A stretch of 64,000 bases of DNA, from assembly GCA_010672925.1 (NCBI GenBank), contig JAAHFP010000007.1, positions 18,759-82,758 on the forward strand, in the 5' to 3' direction. Numbering within the stretch: the first letter of the stretch is position 1; each line of letters opens with the position of its first letter. Below the pieces are notes generated by a model. That model saw nothing but the letters and a program-made list of their open reading frames with translations, did not search any database and had not been told where the DNA came from. A program made the position numbers and the translations under genes. This stretch comes from Symploca sp. SIO1C2. GTDB taxonomy: Bacteria > Cyanobacteriota > Cyanobacteriia > Cyanobacteriales > Coleofasciculaceae. Shown here in pieces: positions 6,809 through 16,964 of this stretch.

Positions 6809-7389
6809 ATGACCCACACACCCGTAAAACTGACTTTTGAGCAATATCTCGAATATGACGATGGCACGGATAACCGTTATGAACTATGTGATGGGGAGCT
6901 AATACAAATGCCCCCAGAGTCAAAAAGAAATATCTGGATCTCCCTGTGGCTAAGAGATGAATTAGTCCAACTGGGTAATCGACGTTTGGTTTTGCCTAGC
7001 AATTGTTGTGAATTGCAAGTAATTGGAAAACACAAAACCGTTTCCCTGACTTAGTGGTAATTAGGGAAGAGCATCTCATCGAGCCTGAAAAACGATGCAC
7101 TATCACTCTCAATATGCCTCCCCCACGGTTAGTTGTTGAGGTAGTCAGCCCTTACCGCCATCAAAAAGATGAAAACTACAAACGTGATTATATTGAGAAG
7201 CGACAACAGTATGAGCAACGAGGTATTCCTGAATACTGGATTGTTGACCCTCAAGCACAGTTAGTCACTGTACTGCTATTGATCAATGGTAGGTATCAGG
7301 CAACTGAATTCACTGGTAATCAGCGGATTGTTTCTCTAATTTTTCCTGAATTAGAACTGACTGCTAAACAGGTTTTGGAAGCTAGGTGA
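6809..7389 (+). pseudogene. Uma2-family (DUF820) endonuclease, frameshifted
   Basis: Two overlapping ORFs (6809..7054, 7054..7389) give one Uma2-like protein if one A is added to the AAAA run near 7033 ('ELQVIGKHKNRFPDLVVIREEH'). Confidence 0.75.
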
Positions 7390-7427
7390 TATCAAATCCG
7401 GTATTCATAAACCAGTTATGCCCACAT

Positions 7428-7457
7428 TGTAGAGACGTTGCATGCAACGTCTCTACA
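7428..7457. repeat. 30-bp perfect palindrome TGTAGAGACGTTGCATGCAACGTCTCTACA
   Basis: Read directly; identical copy at 14702..14731. Confidence 0.95.
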
Positions 7458-7501
7458 GGGTTTTCGCGGTTGCCTTATTTGTGGTCTAGCTTTCATCTTT
7501 T

Positions 7502-7772: not shown

Positions 7773-10700
7773 ATGATGATACCCGCAGCATTCTGGGCAA
7801 GCTTCATTCCATCTTTAGCAGCCAAATTATCTTCAGATTTAATTAATGCTGTATTAGGTGAACTTCGTGGCAGTATACGACGTGCCATTGAAACAGGTCC
7901 TGAACAAGCAGCACTCCAACAAGCTTATGAGTCAGCTTTCCAAGCCTGTTTGCCATACATGTCTCCTCCAAGGGAAGATCTGAAAGACCACTATGCTGAG
8001 TTATTGTACAGTTTTGTTAAGAGACAAAAGGTATCCGAAATTTTTGCTGAATTAGTCGATGTCAGACCCGGTGTCAATCTTGATATACCAGCATTAGAGG
8101 CAGCATTTAAGGCAGATTATGATACTGAAACTTTGCCTGAGTTTAATTTTTCCTTGGTCATGCAGGTATTTGCCAAGGAATATGTTAGTGCTGTAGAACA
8201 CAGCAAGGTTTTGCATCATATTGTTGAAGTTAAACATTTAAAGGCGATTGTTGCTAACTTGGAACAATTGGCAGAACCTGTTAAAGATATAGCCGATAAT
8301 ACCACCGTTCTTCCTGCAATAGAAAAAAAGCTTGTAGAGTTGACTGATGCTGTTTTATCGGGAAAAGAGGATCTAAATAAGTTGGTGCAAGCAATTGCTG
8401 CTTGGCTGACTCATCGGGATCAAGTTACCTTAAAGAATTTATTCCTAGTAGGACAAAAACTGGATCTTTTCTTAAGCACTCCAGGAAGACATGACACGGC
8501 TGAAGTCACTGCTATTAAAGATGAGGTTCAACAGCTGCGAGAGGAAGTTAGTCGTCGTGCAGAGCAAGGATTAAGTACTAGTGAACTAGAGCAGCTTGAG
8601 GAAATATATCGCAGCGAAATTAGCGCTTGCCATAGTTTGCTGACTTTTCAGGGTATGCTGCAAAATAATCAACCTGTTGCTTTACCAATAACAGATATTT
8701 TTGTCTCCTTGTCGGTTGCAGCTGCTAAACCTAGGATTAGCACCCCGGAAGAAGAACAAATTCGGCGTCAATTAGAAGCTGCTGATAAGTTTCCCCAACA
8801 TTCAAGTTTATCGGCAGAGCAAAGGGAAACACTCCTGTGCCGTTTAGAGGAAATACATCAGGAACCTTCCCCTCAGTCAGAGGAAAAATCAGACATAACT
8901 CAAGCCTTGCTGAAGTCTAAATCTCAAGCTTTGGTAGTTTTGGGAGATCCTGGAGCCGGGAAAACAACACTGCTGAGGTATCTAGCATTAGCTTTTGCTG
9001 AAAATCATGCGGCTCAACGGTTAGATTTGGCGGAGCAACGATTGCCAATTTTTGTACCCCTGGCTGCCTATAATGCTACCTTGGACAATAACCATGATTT
9101 TCCTTTATCCGAGTTTCTAGCTTATTACTATCAAACGAATCGAGAGTTACCGGGTTTAACCCCTCTATTTAAAAAATATCTTGAACAAGGACAAGCGATC
9201 GCATTATTTGATGGACTCGATGAAGTTTTAGATGTGAGTACACGTCAATTAATAGCACAGCGGGTTCAAGCATTTATTAATCGCTACCTGCCTCTTGGTA
9301 ATCGGATTATTATGACTAGCCGTGTTGTCGGTTATCAAGAGGTTCGTTTATCGAAGGAAAACGTTGCCCATTTCCGAGTTTTAAGTTTAGATGAGACAGG
9401 GATTGCCAAGTTTATTCGAGCCTGGTCTTTAGCTTTTGAAGCAAGAATCAGAGGAGAAACCCTGGAGCAGGTTTCTAGTGAAACTGTCAGAGAAGCCAAA
9501 ACTAAAGAGCAAGGCTTGGCTGAAGCCATCGAAGCTCCCAGTGTGAAAAAATTGGCAGGTAATCCTCTACTGTTAACAATTTTGGCAGTGGTTTATCGCC
9601 AAGAAGGTCTGCGATTGCCTCGCCGTCGAGTTGAACTGTATGATCGTTACTCTCGGGTTTTGCTAGAAACTTGGAATCGTGTCCGTAGTCAATCTGGTAG
9701 ACCAGTCGGTAAACCATTAGAGTTTTTAAGTACAGCCAAAGTTCTCTCCCATTTGGCTCTGTGGTTACAGCAAAATAGACCTAGTGGTATGGCTCGTGGA
9801 AGGGAGGTTCAGAAACAACTTTGTGATTATTATCTATCCCGTAAAGGGTTCAGTTCACCTAAGGCGTATCTTCAAAGTCAAAAATTTGATGTAGGGGCAA
9901 AGCATTTGGGCGATAATTTATCGATGAAACCCAAGATGTACAGTCCAAATGCTTCGCCCTCCGGCAGTTTTAAAACATGCCCTAGTCCCGAAGAAATAGA
10001 CGCAGTTGAGCAGGAAGCCCAACAATTTCTGCAAGATGTCCGGGAACACAGCGGTTTATTGATCGAGCGAGGGAAAGACACCTATGGCTTTATGCACCTC
10101 ACCTTTCAAGAATATTTTACTGCTTGGGCATTGGCGAAGATGCCATTAGAAGAAAGATGGCAAATCATCTCTCCTCATTTGCACGATTCCCGTTGGCGTG
10201 AGGTAATTCTGCTAACAGCCGGACAAATCAGTGTTGTGGATGCTAACGAATGGGAAGCTACGGCTTTCCTTAGGAAGATTCTAGAGGCTGGCAGTCGTTT
10301 TAATGACTTGCTGCAACGAGATGAAATTTTAGCAGCAGCCTGTCTAGCTGATGAAATCGAAATTGCACCGGATTTAAGTCAAATTATAGTAGAACGTATT
10401 GGTCAAGCCCTGAGATCACCTTATCCTAAGGTAGCAAAAGCTGCTGTTGAAGCTATGGGGAATCTTCAACAGACAATTTTAACCAATTTGGCTACAGCAG
10501 AGACTATCAAAGGACTTACCCAACCGCAAGCCTGGAAGCGGGAAATTGCAGTAGATACCCTAGCCAAACTAGATTCAAGTCCTCAACGTACTCAAGCAGT
10601 GCTCTCTACTCTTGCTGATTCAGATGACTCTGTTCGTATTTCAACGGTTCGTGCTCTTAGTCAGTTTCAGCCGATGAGTGAAGAAGTGCTTGGAGCGATC

Positions 10701-13700
10701 GCTACTAGAATAAAACAGGAGCCAGAAGCTGGACTGCGTTTTGAATTGGGGTTGGCAGTCTGGCAGCAGAAGCAAAGGGAGCCGAATGCTTGTAGGCAAC
10801 TTGAAGAGAGTTTTATTGAAGCTTATCTTGAAATTTTACAACCTTATTCTCATACTTACAGAACTTCTGACTTATTTAAGTCGCTACTTGAACAGCTACT
10901 CACCAAGGACGATACTCCAACTGTTCAGGCTGAGTTTCTCAGACTGCTATTCAAAAGTTGCCAAGCCTATGTTCAACAACTCGGTTTAAACTTTCTCGAA
11001 TATCTAGATCTTGATATTAGCATTGCTCAACCATTCTGGGTTCAGGCATTGAATGATTCAGATTGGCGAATGCGGGGAACAGCACTGCAAAAACTGTTTG
11101 ATCTGAAAGAAGTACCAGAGGAATTAGCAGCAAAAGTCGTGGATGCTTCTCAAAAAGAGCAACATCCTGAACTCAAGGAGCTAGCGCTAGGGTTAAGCCT
11201 TGAATGGGAGCAGCTTAGTGCGAATGAGTCAGACTTAAATACGCTATTAAGTAGTAGTTGGTGGGAAGTACGGCAAGTCGCAGCTCAAGCTTTGGGGAAG
11301 CTGGAGCAACTCAGTGAGGCAACATTGACAGCTTTAGTACAGGGTTTGAGTGATAGCAACTCTAATGTACGACGAGCAATTATAGATACACTCACTACCT
11401 TGGCTCAGCGAGATGAAACGGTTGTGAAGAAACTACGCCAAGCCTTGCCTCTGGCTACTGGGGAGAGTCAAACCTATATCTTTCTGACATTGGTAGCTGC
11501 TTTAAAGCAATTGGATAGTAATGATAAGAACTACTTGTGCGAGTTGCTAGGAGATTCAGATTGGTGGGTGCGGCAGAAAGCAGCTCAAACTTTGGGGAAA
11601 CTGGAGCAACTGAGTGAGGCAATGCTGATGGCTCTGATACAGGGTTCGAGTGACAACAATTCTAATGTGCGACGAGCGATTAGAGATACACTCACTACCC
11701 TGGCTCAGCAAGACAAGACGATTGTGGCAAAACTATGCCAAGTGTTATCTCAGGCAACTGGGCAGACTCGAGTCAACATCATCCTGGTATTAGCTACTTT
11801 AGAAAAATTCGATAGTAATGATGAGAGCTTTTTGTGCGAGTTGCTCGAGTCTTCAAATTGGCAGGTGCGGGAGTTAGCGGCTCAGACTCTGGGAAAGCTG
11901 GAGCAACTGAGTGAGGCAACGTTGATGGCTTTGGTACAGGGCTTAGATGAGAGTGACTCTGATGTGCGACAAGCGATTCAAGATACACTCACTGCCCTAG
12001 TTCAGAAAGAGACGGTTGTGAAGAAACTACGCCAAGCCTTGCCTCAGGTTACTGGGTGGACTCAAGTCAATATTATCCTGACATTGACTGCTTTAAAGCA
12101 ATGGGATAGTACCGATGAGAATTACTTGCGTGAGTTGCTAAGAGACTCAGATGAGGATGTGCGGCAGGCAGCTGCTCAAACTTTGGGGAAACTCGATCAA
12201 CTGAGTAAGGCAACCCTGATAGCTTTGGTACAGGGATTAGGTGACAGTGACTCTGATGTGCAACAAGCTATTAGTGGTACGTTGACTACCCTGGCTCAGC
12301 GAGACGAGAAGATTGTGGTGAAACTACGCCAAGCCTTATCCCAAACGACTGGGCAAAGTCAAACCTATATCATCCTCATATTGGCTGCTGTAGAAGAACT
12401 TGATAGTGAAGAAGTGCTTAGTGCGATCGCTAAAAGAATGAAACAGGAGCCAGAAGCCAGACTGCGCTTTCAATTAAGTCTGGCACTCTGGCAACATAAG
12501 CCAAGGGAGCTTACTGTTTGTAGGCAACTGGAAGAAAGTTTTATAGAAGCTTATTTTGAAACGTTGCAAAGTTATCTTCCTATATCTATAATTTCTAGAC
12601 GATTGAAGTCGCTACTCGAGCAACTACTCACCAAGGAAGATACTCCAACCACTCAGGCTGAGTTTCTCAGACTGCTATTCAGCAGTAGCCAAACCTATGT
12701 TCGACAACTTGGTATAAACCTGCTCACTTCTCTAGATTTGGATAGTAGCATTGCTCAACCATTGTGGGTTCAGGCATTGAATGATTCAGATTGTCGAGTG
12801 CAGCGAATAGTACTGCAAAGCCTATTTAACCTGGAAGAAGTACCTGATCAATTGGTGGCAGAAGTAGTAAGTTTTTCTCAAAAAGAACAACATCCTGAAA
12901 TCAAGCAGCTAGCATTGGGGTTAAGCCTGAAATTGGGGGGATTAGAGCAAATATCAGAGGAGACTGTAGCAGCCCTGATTAACTGTCTGAGTAACAAAGA
13001 CTTTATTGTGCAACAAACTAATCTAGAAGCACTTATTACCTTAGTTCAACAGGACGAGACAATCACGGCTAAGCTACACCAAATACTGCCCCAGGCAACA
13101 GGGCGAACTCGAACCTATATTCTATTGGCATTGGCTACTTTAGAACAACTCAGTAGTAATGATGAAAACCTTTGGTGTGAGCTGCTCGAATCTTCAAATT
13201 GGGAGGTACGGCAGACAGCATTTGAAGCTTTGGGGAAACTCAAGCAACTCAGTGAGACAATGCTGACAAGGTTGGTAAAGGGTTTAAGAGACAGCGATCC
13301 TGATGTAAAAGCAGCGATTCGAGATGCGCTCACTAGCCTAGCTCAACAAGATGGAACGGTTGTAACAAAACTACGCCAAGCCCTACCTCAATCAACTAGG
13401 CAAACTCGAACCAATATCCTACTGACATTGGCTACTTTAAAACAATCCGATAGTAATGATGAAAACCTTTTGTGTGAGCTGCTCGAACATTCAGATAGGC
13501 AGGTACAAAAGTCAGCAGCTGAAGCTTTGGGAAAACTAGAACAACTCAGTGAAGCAACGCTAACAACTCTAGTAAAAAGACTAAGTGACAGTTTTCCTTC
13601 TGTACAACAAGCAATTGAACAGGTACTCTCCAAACACAAAGAATGCTTAGAACCTGTCATCTATGCTATCTTGGCAACTGCTTTTCCCACAGTTCGTATT

Positions 13701-13952
13701 CAAGTAGTTAAGTTAATTAGTGATTTAGGAATCCCTTGCTCAGACCGAATTCAGGCATTACTTCAGAATATGCTGGAAGCGCGAAGCAGTAACTTGCGGC
13801 GAGTAGCTGCTAACACTTTACTCAGTTTTGAGATTGTCAACGACGAAATAATCAACGTACTCAAAAGCGATTTATCTCATGAAAGCGGTCAGATCAATGA
13901 ACAGGCATATCAAAATCTAATCAAAATTAGTGGTGTCACACCAGTAGGTTAG
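7773..13952 (+). CDS. NACHT-domain STAND NTPase with HEAT repeats (NLR-like)
   Basis: 2059 aa; Walker A 'VVLGDPGAGKTTLLRYLAL'; Walker B 'AIALFDGLDEVLD'; sensor-like 'NRIIMTSRVVGY'; 'YGFMHLTFQEYFTAWAL'; long C-terminal HEAT-like repeats 'VRQAAAQTLGKL.QLS.ATL.ALVQGL.DSDSDV..AI..TLTTLAQ'. Confidence 0.92.
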   Translation: MMIPAAFWASFIPSLAAKLSSDLINAVLGELRGSIRRAIETGPEQAALQQAYESAFQACLPYMSPPREDLKDHYAELLYSFVKRQKVSEIFAELVDVRPGVNLDIPALEAAFKADYDTETLPEFNFSLVMQVFAKEYVSAVEHSKVLHHIVEVKHLKAIVANLEQLAEPVKDIADNTTVLPAIEKKLVELTDAVLSGKEDLNKLVQAIAAWLTHRDQVTLKNLFLVGQKLDLFLSTPGRHDTAEVTAIKDEVQQLREEVSRRAEQGLSTSELEQLEEIYRSEISACHSLLTFQGMLQNNQPVALPITDIFVSLSVAAAKPRISTPEEEQIRRQLEAADKFPQHSSLSAEQRETLLCRLEEIHQEPSPQSEEKSDITQALLKSKSQALVVLGDPGAGKTTLLRYLALAFAENHAAQRLDLAEQRLPIFVPLAAYNATLDNNHDFPLSEFLAYYYQTNRELPGLTPLFKKYLEQGQAIALFDGLDEVLDVSTRQLIAQRVQAFINRYLPLGNRIIMTSRVVGYQEVRLSKENVAHFRVLSLDETGIAKFIRAWSLAFEARIRGETLEQVSSETVREAKTKEQGLAEAIEAPSVKKLAGNPLLLTILAVVYRQEGLRLPRRRVELYDRYSRVLLETWNRVRSQSGRPVGKPLEFLSTAKVLSHLALWLQQNRPSGMARGREVQKQLCDYYLSRKGFSSPKAYLQSQKFDVGAKHLGDNLSMKPKMYSPNASPSGSFKTCPSPEEIDAVEQEAQQFLQDVREHSGLLIERGKDTYGFMHLTFQEYFTAWALAKMPLEERWQIISPHLHDSRWREVILLTAGQISVVDANEWEATAFLRKILEAGSRFNDLLQRDEILAAACLADEIEIAPDLSQIIVERIGQALRSPYPKVAKAAVEAMGNLQQTILTNLATAETIKGLTQPQAWKREIAVDTLAKLDSSPQRTQAVLSTLADSDDSVRISTVRALSQFQPMSEEVLGAIATRIKQEPEAGLRFELGLAVWQQKQREPNACRQLEESFIEAYLEILQPYSHTYRTSDLFKSLLEQLLTKDDTPTVQAEFLRLLFKSCQAYVQQLGLNFLEYLDLDISIAQPFWVQALNDSDWRMRGTALQKLFDLKEVPEELAAKVVDASQKEQHPELKELALGLSLEWEQLSANESDLNTLLSSSWWEVRQVAAQALGKLEQLSEATLTALVQGLSDSNSNVRRAIIDTLTTLAQRDETVVKKLRQALPLATGESQTYIFLTLVAALKQLDSNDKNYLCELLGDSDWWVRQKAAQTLGKLEQLSEAMLMALIQGSSDNNSNVRRAIRDTLTTLAQQDKTIVAKLCQVLSQATGQTRVNIILVLATLEKFDSNDESFLCELLESSNWQVRELAAQTLGKLEQLSEATLMALVQGLDESDSDVRQAIQDTLTALVQKETVVKKLRQALPQVTGWTQVNIILTLTALKQWDSTDENYLRELLRDSDEDVRQAAAQTLGKLDQLSKATLIALVQGLGDSDSDVQQAISGTLTTLAQRDEKIVVKLRQALSQTTGQSQTYIILILAAVEELDSEEVLSAIAKRMKQEPEARLRFQLSLALWQHKPRELTVCRQLEESFIEAYFETLQSYLPISIISRRLKSLLEQLLTKEDTPTTQAEFLRLLFSSSQTYVRQLGINLLTSLDLDSSIAQPLWVQALNDSDCRVQRIVLQSLFNLEEVPDQLVAEVVSFSQKEQHPEIKQLALGLSLKLGGLEQISEETVAALINCLSNKDFIVQQTNLEALITLVQQDETITAKLHQILPQATGRTRTYILLALATLEQLSSNDENLWCELLESSNWEVRQTAFEALGKLKQLSETMLTRLVKGLRDSDPDVKAAIRDALTSLAQQDGTVVTKLRQALPQSTRQTRTNILLTLATLKQSDSNDENLLCELLEHSDRQVQKSAAEALGKLEQLSEATLTTLVKRLSDSFPSVQQAIEQVLSKHKECLEPVIYAILATAFPTVRIQVVKLISDLGIPCSDRIQALLQNMLEARSSNLRRVAANTLLSFEIVNDEIINVLKSDLSHESGQINEQAYQNLIKISGVTPVG
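9894..9960. repeat. Interrupted palindrome (GGGGCAAAGCATTTGG...CCAAATGCTTCGCCC) in frame inside the NACHT gene
   Basis: ~15-bp inverted arms with a 35-bp spacer; reading frame maintained. Confidence 0.7.
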
Positions 13953-14448: not shown

Positions 14449-14721
14449 TTAAACAACACGACACCCTTCTTTTGTCAAGTGGCCTTGCAATCGCAGTAAC
14501 TCTATAGACTTTCCCGCACCTCGATGCCCAGAGTAGAGATAACAACCATTATGCTGCGATCGCTTAATTTGATTGCCCAAATCCATTAAAATATCGCTAT
14601 CTCCCCGCACCTCCTCGCAGTTTACGTAGGCAGCATCACCTGCTGGTAAAGGTGCATAAGGATTGAAGGTATTGTAAAGATTGTCTATAAGCTGAAAACC
14701 CTGTAGAGACGTTGCATGCAA
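14449..14721 (-). pseudogene. N-terminal stub of a P-loop (AAA-type) ATPase
   Basis: Walker A 'YSGHRGAGKSIELLRLQGHLTKEGCRVV*', then stop; the annotated ATG lies inside the 14702..14731 palindrome. Confidence 0.65.
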
Positions 14722-14731
14722 CGTCTCTACA
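14702..14731. repeat. 30-bp perfect palindrome, second copy
   Basis: tgtagagacgttgcatgcaacgtctctaca, identical to 7428..7457; adjacent bases also match in reverse-complement orientation. Confidence 0.95.
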
Positions 14732-14837
14732 ATATGGAAAATTAAAAATATTAGCTTTTTATATCCAAAGAGGTGACAATCATTCGTACAATAAATTGTT
14801 GGATTCCAAGATATTTCAATAAATTCAGGAGATTTTC

Positions 14838-15437: not shown

Positions 15438-15549
15438 CTAGTGCAGCAGGCATGGAAATAACCTACCAGTTTGAGAGCGATAGAATCCTTACGACCTAAG
15501 CATTCTAAATTCTTCATTCTTCATTCTTCATTCCGCGCAGCGGTACTAG
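15438..15549. mobile_element. ~112-bp MITE-like repeat, ends CTAGTGCAGC... / ...GCGCAGCGGTACTAG
   Basis: Matches 63414..63523 in reverse complement across a shared core 'ACCAGTTTGAG..CGATAGAATCCTTAC....TAAGCATTCT.AATTCTT'. Confidence 0.65.
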
Positions 15550-16964
15550 CTTCCGCCAATCTCCTGTTCCAATCTTTGACCAATCCCTACCAATGTCTCA
15601 AAAAACGCCTTAATATCTGACTGGCTGGTCTGATTATTACAAATCACTAGGCGAAATACCATCCTGTTGTCCAGCTGGGCATAATTTACCATTGCCACCC
15701 CTTCCTCCCACAAGGCTTGCCGAATTTTCAGTGTTAGGGTGTTGGGGTCTTGCTGGGAATTTTGGGGGATGTATTGGAAACACAGGTTAAGGGACTGCCG
15801 AGGAGTTACCATGACCAGAGACTCATGGGCGTTAATAATTGCTTCAGCATAAGCCGCTAATGTAAAATATTGGTCAATCAAGGTTTCCCAACCGCGATCG
15901 CCCAACTGCTTCCAGGTGAGCCAAAGCTTGACTGCATCTACCCGCCTACCACAATGTATACTGCTTAGACCTAAATCAATAGGTTCTTCCTCCCCTGCAT
16001 GAAACAGGTAATCAGTGCCATCAGCGGAAAAAGTGCTCAACATCATACCCCGGTGTTTGAGCAGCAGTACCGAACACATCAGCGTCATCCCCATCATTTT
16101 GTGGGCATCCCAAACCACAGAGTCCGCCTGTTCTACTCCCTGCATCAAATTCCTATGGGTTGGACTCAGCAACACACTGGCTCCCCAGGCTCCGTCTACA
16201 TGGAACCATAGCCCTTCTCGGTGAGCCACCGTCGCAATTTCCCCAAAAGGATCGTAAGCTCCCTGCACCGTTGTACCTGCGGTTCCAGCCACAAAAAAGG
16301 GTTGAGCCCCTTGAGCACAAGCTTGAGCAATCTGTTTCTCCAACTCAGCTACCACCATCCTGCCTTGCTTATCAACCGGTACTTTCCACAATTGATTTGT
16401 TCCCAAACCCAGTAGATGAGCAGCTTTGGCAAAGGAATAGTGAGCATCGGCAGAAACAAAGGCAATCAACTTGGGACTATTAACCATCCCCTCCTGCTTG
16501 AGACTGGGAATAGCCCGATGACGAGCGATCGCCATAGCCATAAAATTACCATTACTACCCCCCGTCGTAAACTGTCCCTCCGGCTCAGAGAAACCCACCA
16601 ATTTACCCATTTTGGCAACCAAAGTTTTCTCAATCAACGTCGCCACAGGAGCCACCTCATAGGTATACATAGAGGTATTGGTGGCACTAGTCAGGATATC
16701 TCCCATAAAACAAGGGGAGCTAAATCCTCCCCAAAGTTGATTGAAGTATTGGGGATGGGCTGTTTTCACCCCATAGGTTAAATATTGGGCAATATCTGTT
16801 TGCAGTTGTTCCAAAGACTTCCCTTCCATCGGTAAATCAAGGGACAACTGCTCCCGCAATATTTCTGGATCCAACCGCTTGGCAATAGGTTTCTGGTTAG
16901 CAGAGTCCGTAAAAAACTGTTCGATTTGTTGCAAGAGGTTACTATAATCGGAAGCTCTGAACAT
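15546..16964 (-). CDS. PLP-dependent group II decarboxylase (diaminobutyrate/aromatic amino-acid decarboxylase-like)
   Basis: 'WFHVDGAWGASVLLSPTHRNLMQGVEQADSVVWDAHKMMGMTLMCSVLLLK' with PLP lysine in 'DAHKMM'; 'GQFTTGGSNGNFMAMAIAR'. Confidence 0.9.
   Translation of the reverse strand: MFRASDYSNLLQQIEQFFTDSANQKPIAKRLDPEILREQLSLDLPMEGKSLEQLQTDIAQYLTYGVKTAHPQYFNQLWGGFSSPCFMGDILTSATNTSMYTYEVAPVATLIEKTLVAKMGKLVGFSEPEGQFTTGGSNGNFMAMAIARHRAIPSLKQEGMVNSPKLIAFVSADAHYSFAKAAHLLGLGTNQLWKVPVDKQGRMVVAELEKQIAQACAQGAQPFFVAGTAGTTVQGAYDPFGEIATVAHREGLWFHVDGAWGASVLLSPTHRNLMQGVEQADSVVWDAHKMMGMTLMCSVLLLKHRGMMLSTFSADGTDYLFHAGEEEPIDLGLSSIHCGRRVDAVKLWLTWKQLGDRGWETLIDQYFTLAAYAEAIINAHESLVMVTPRQSLNLCFQYIPQNSQQDPNTLTLKIRQALWEEGVAMVNYAQLDNRMVFRLVICNNQTSQSDIKAFFETLVGIGQRLEQEIGGS

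Follow-up and report, generated by a model that had tools for sequence, protein, structure and literature searches.

Anti-phage proteins of the bacterial NACHT (bNACHT) type are tripartite, with a C-terminal sensor and an N-terminal effector (PMC12169576), an example being bNACHT25, in which a PD-(D/E)XK nuclease N-terminus and an NCH1 C-terminus accompany the central NACHT module (PMC12169576). The BELL domain has been described for bacterial NLR-linked effectors (PMC7889193), and in DSR2 it is HEAT repeats that touch a phage-encoded activator and inhibitor (PMC11263360). Pertinent from a different perspective are small palindromic repeats: filamentous cyanobacteria have known REP-like families (PMC3733652), and the literature on Rickettsia palindromic elements and GTAG-type REPs (PMC3733652, PMC10969869) provides the basis for the comparisons made below.

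The gene considered here is at 7773..13952 in a 64,000-nucleotide stretch of DNA (the window, to which positions refer unless another locus is named) from Symploca sp. SIO1C2, whose genome is 8.67 Mb in 245 contigs. It is intact, a single uninterrupted ORF for an NNH2-NACHT-HEAT protein of 2059 aa, and all its features given below are on the forward strand. With bNACHT25 the product shares the tripartite layout and central NACHT module, its termini instead being NNH2 and HEAT. With the NNH2-NACHT-HEAT proteins of its own genome (e.g. loci L043, L044 and L047) and of related cyanobacteria it shares the order NNH2, NACHT, winged helix, HEAT, though those paralogs are shorter, at 974-1517 aa. The closest NACHT plus winged-helix core, and a pre-NACHT motif in common, are found in giant cyanobacterial NACHT-TPR proteins (L030, L036, L039, L117), but these have a TPR C-terminus and an N-terminus without an NNH2 match; by Pfam, their TPR C-terminus is absent from the focal protein, which has HEAT in its place. 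The product is a real and intact NLR-related STAND protein of an already known kind, unusual in its size and divergence. NACHT is matched 53 times in its genome and NNH2 nine times, of which eight are above cut-off (the focal one and seven other loci); the protein is therefore a further bacterial member of the NLR-related STAND group and does not stand out as exceptional.

The NACHT NTPase domain, residues 387-551 (8931..9425), matches Pfam PF05729 with an E of 2.3e-10 and 41 bits versus a curated cut-off of 26.7. What places it among NACHT-clade STAND NTPases, besides that profile score, is a Walker A of the form GxxGxGK[ST] (GDPGAGKT, residues 391-398, 8943..8966), a Walker B with DGxDE (LFDGLDE, residues 478-484, 9204..9224) and a winged helix with the signature FMHLTFQEYF (residues 773-782, 10089..10118); TSR (515-517) and NPLLLT (597-602) are likewise present. 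On alignment with 40 homologs, all the motifs of the module, the winged-helix signature included, fall on invariant or near-invariant columns. An AlphaFold2 model of residues 1-859, made from a 41-row alignment with one plasmid-derived row left out, has a mean pLDDT of 78 and an NLR-like core for which the top Foldseek match in the PDB is NLRC4 (4kxf; E 1.8e-9), with NLRP3, NOD2 and further NLRs next in rank; a viral structure library gave generic P-loop ATPases alone. The predicted fold qualifies as NLR-like, yet with global TM-scores of only about 0.3 the resemblance to NLRs is claimed for the core only. The complete NACHT module and the NLR-like STAND architecture proposed in the initial annotation are both borne out by the profiles, alignment and model.

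That annotation saw the N-terminal region as helical and devoid of recognizable motifs, and only the first part of the description holds. The first ~290 residues are wholly helical in the AlphaFold2 model, and residues 16-166 (7818..8270), in effector position, are a divergent NNH2 domain (Pfam PF22734; E 2.4e-12, 47.3 bits versus a cut-off of 27, profile positions 2-154 of 181), and profile-profile comparison aligns residues 31-292 with the N-terminal parts of NNH2-NACHT proteins (E 4.8e-6, probability 86%). The divergence is considerable, 47 bits versus 165-208 for the paralogs. No housekeeping assignment, which would have spoken against a defence role, was found for the N-terminus. A profile search for a solved relative of NNH2 gave just helical matches that were weak and partial, the best with E 0.005, and no demonstrated activity of the domain was found in the literature consulted. 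Alignment and model define a helical linker, residues 167-386 (8271..8930), that on alignment exceeds its counterpart in the NNH2-NACHT-HEAT paralogs by ~110 aa and includes, at residues 279-318, the conserved pre-NACHT motif common to the NACHT-TPR proteins. Within the N-terminal region, the 19-residue stretch of highest hydrophobicity is at the extreme N-terminus in most of the NNH2 proteins examined, the focal protein being an exception in having a slightly stronger stretch elsewhere. By analogy with BELL, this placement may be taken as a hint of membrane action, though one that is suggestive only.

A plasmid of Azotobacter chroococcum encodes a SIR2-NACHT-HEAT protein (L116, 5110-8019; it adjoins IS3 transposase genes) with a NACHT domain and HEAT array as in the focal protein and SIR2 where the latter has NNH2. 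In the tree the NACHT core of this plasmid protein groups as sister of the main NNH2-NACHT-HEAT clade, with support of 100/99. The N-terminal slot of one NACHT-HEAT chassis can thus be occupied by SIR2, a NADase, or by NNH2, an argument for an output role of NNH2, in keeping with the effector or oligomerization position initially proposed for this region.

The C-terminal part, residues ~890-2059 (10440..13949), is a HEAT-repeat array and the presumed sensor (Pfam HEAT_2 and HEAT with E 9e-67 and 2e-51; also alphaRep matches). At about 1,170 aa it is a little shorter than the 1,200 first estimated, its HEAT-like nature being as described. Within it are four super-repeats of ~99 aa with three HEATs each (residues 1160-1555, 11250..12437) and two more at residues 1806-2003 (13188..13781), at least six being present. 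There is also an internal duplication of ~1.7 kb, residues 969-1402 versus 1545-1948, the best-preserved blocks of which (residues 969-1143, 10677..11201, and 1545-1719, 12405..12929) are identical at 70% of amino acids and 81% of nucleotides. The array grew via the ~99-aa super-repeat together with the ~1.7 kb duplication. Values of dN/dS between HEAT repeats, 0.25-0.49, point to purifying selection and not decay; overall positive selection on the repeats was considered and dropped since dN/dS is below 1. A single-sequence model of the HEAT part alone was of low confidence (pLDDT 55.8), too poor for surface mapping. Given the contacts made by DSR2 HEAT repeats with phage proteins, a protein-sensing role for the focal array is reasonable.

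A different type of feature is found between NACHT and the winged helix, where a copy of a palindromic repeat that is dispersed in the genome encodes residues ~700-739 (9870..9988) in frame, these residues having no counterpart at that position in any homolog of the 40-homolog alignment. A mobile repeat in frame in the middle of a NACHT gene is unusual, and could impair function of the protein. Its RNA forms a hairpin (z -4.07), and at the protein level it is a low-confidence loop, with pLDDT below 50 at residues 708-729 in the AlphaFold2 model. The repeat, with core TGTAGGGGCRAAGCATTTGGG...CCAAATGCTTCGCCC and a derived peptide that is mostly VGAKHLGDNxSxKPKxYNPNASPS, has ~45 matches in its own genome and is matched in 24 of 59 genomes searched. 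Long ORFs contain 20 of the 45 copies examined (43 from the genome itself and 2 from a congener); these 20 share one orientation, 18 of them also sharing a reading frame, and in 17 the antisense frame is open as well. Sites in addition to the one in the focal gene include L177 2118-2182, L039 10385-10439, L036 6521-6623 and 8300-8391, with further copies at L144, L148, L154, L157-L159 and L173, and the host genes encode UvrC, a chorismate-binding enzyme, an NRPS, an EamA transporter, nSTAND1, NACHT-TPR and FGE-domain proteins. In UvrC the insert is absent from one congener, which has an empty site, single in another, and present several times in the genome under study. Occurrence in frame in unrelated genes, together with an empty site in a relative, marks the repeat as a coding palindromic element resembling those of Rickettsia (RPE-like).

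As with Rickettsia palindromic elements, the repeat is small, palindromic and in frame within unrelated genes; unlike them, it is in another taxon and encodes another peptide. Its likeness to GTAG-type REPs, with their cyanobacterial families GTAG-12/15/16, is by description. Since REP-like families of filamentous cyanobacteria are known, the repeat family itself may be known, but no description of the in-gene coding habit seen here was found in the literature searched. Two other observations are pertinent to repeats of this general kind. A second linker in the UvrC of this genus (L177 1133-3316) is expanding, composed of translated short repeats (PIPNSQFPIPNSQFPNNKQPTTNNKQ) and of a different length in each of three genomes, and at L166 1465-4101, where HEAT repeats are fused to a caspase-like Peptidase_C14, the palindromic repeat is present in another frame.

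Relatives of the focal protein are variably distributed. Five intact paralogs in its own genome are NNH2-NACHT-HEAT proteins, and across the 59 genomes (own and relatives) NNH2 matches occur in 24, with 0 to 11 per genome and internal stops in several. Variable copy number and internal stops amount to a birth-and-death pattern such as immune repertoires show. The close-relative scan of genome contigs revealed no ortholog of the focal protein; its N-terminus (residues 1-374) had no match elsewhere in 22 family genomes and one weak match (22%) in 390 class genomes, and phage records had no match to the protein. Plasmid matches are mostly to the NACHT core, at below 60% identity, and none spans 80% of the query. 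The core is nearest to the giant NACHT-TPR proteins (32-41% identity). In the tree it is a long branch outside, and not nested within, both NNH2-NACHT-HEAT clades, and it is weakly placed (80/6) in a wider tree with more NACHTs; with this placement and the lack of an ortholog found, it is called an orphan lineage. By sequence comparison the protein is a divergent, lineage-specific STAND protein.

A tentative alternative about origin, compatible with any function, is that it arose as a chimera, a NACHT core of the NACHT-TPR lineage having acquired both an NNH2 N-terminus and a HEAT array. The best matches of the core are NACHT-TPR giants (35-41% identity), whereas the N-terminus matches NNH2. 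However, the focal branch, besides being long and weakly placed, is between groups in the unrooted tree and not inside the TPR clade, and a deep independent lineage accounts for the data equally well; in the reduced unrooted tree used as a clade test, the focal grouping is 'already one side of a branch', which, the tree being unrooted, favors neither rival.

On its upstream side the focal gene has neighbors for a K+ channel and for a Uma2 protein, the latter split between two frames (6809-7054 and 7054-7389). The downstream neighbors encode a DUF2281 protein, an ATPase stub of 90 aa (14449-14721) and a BMC shell protein; a transporter also belongs to the context. The split Uma2 gene and the ATPase stub bear out the initial description of a gene-decay island only in part, the NACHT gene between them being intact. 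The BMC gene is kept in both congeners and polyamine-type transporter genes in one of them; to the left of the BMC gene, toward the NACHT gene, neither congener has the same flank. The conserved synteny that would have weakened a defence interpretation is thus not found in these relatives. No defence island was found around the gene, the PADLOC matches being to generic HEAT or P-loop proteins, nor was a partner gene conserved beside NNH2-NACHT-HEAT loci common to the focal locus, except for a Uma2 relative near L047. (That relative is an uninterrupted 147-aa Uma2-family ORF, 73% identical over the second Uma2 fragment.) In a separate aspect of the locus, a PLP-dependent decarboxylase gene (15546-16964) is between the BMC and transporter genes, which adjoin each other in congener G001, so that it was either gained here or lost there. 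Another palindromic repeat (7421-7467 and 14685-14737) flanks the NACHT gene in opposite orientations, both copies matching a repeat in congener locus L187; short repeats are so common in this genome that the pair may be due to chance.

With respect to function, the interpretation that is favored here, with some reserve, is that the protein is a bacterial NLR-related STAND switch with an anti-phage or immune role, probably as an alarm protein for phage or cell damage. At rest, the NACHT plus winged-helix core would bind ADP and be held shut by the HEAT solenoid. The HEAT array would then bind its trigger, most likely a protein from a phage or one altered by infection, whereupon the core would swap nucleotide and oligomerize via NACHT, with the clustered NNH2 helical domains executing or recruiting a cell-death or dormancy response. 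If NNH2 carries out or recruits the output, a separate partner gene is unneeded. Counted for the immune interpretation are the profiles, intact motifs, NLR matches, paralogs, apparent birth-and-death pattern, SIR2 sister, dN/dS values, lack of an ortholog and non-syntenic flank; counted against it are the lack of defence neighbors, the generic PADLOC matches, the position of the core outside the NNH2-NACHT-HEAT clades, the low-confidence HEAT model and the in-frame insert. A bolder extension, improbable when taken as a whole, is that NNH2 would be a membrane-acting death domain, as in HeLo/BELL-type helical effectors, that NNH2 proteins would be single-gene bacterial resistosome-like receptors, and that their evolution in the genus would have been aided both by HEAT super-repeat duplication and by a mobile palindromic element whose coding copies add flexible linkers.

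That the protein instead serves non-immune signaling, in differentiation, stress or developmental regulation, with HEAT as scaffold and NNH2 as adaptor, would be congruent with the lack of defence context near the gene and with the dozens of NACHT genes in the genome; it is considered rather unlikely since lineage specificity, lack of synteny, variable copies, pseudogenized relatives and SIR2 in a sister protein are better fitted by conflict systems. That the gene is a non-functional island relic, still open by chance and damaged by the palindromic insert, is quite doubtful. In favor of this reading are the broken Uma2 and ATPase genes nearby, the stops in several NNH2 and NACHT relatives and the mobile repeat that separates NACHT from the winged helix. 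Against it, the frame stays open over all 2059 codons, every motif is intact, dN/dS between repeats is well below 1, and the insert keeps the frame and falls in a low-confidence loop, the same repeat being carried in frame by UvrC.

The gene illustrates how large and repeat-rich the NLR-like receptors of cyanobacteria become. The swap of SIR2 and NNH2 on one NACHT-HEAT chassis is a direct and testable reason for viewing NNH2 as an output domain, and a defined NNH2 output would be useful. With the insert there is a further palindromic repeat that recurs within genes in a single frame, as is best known for Rickettsia, and this side finding may matter more than the NACHT gene itself.
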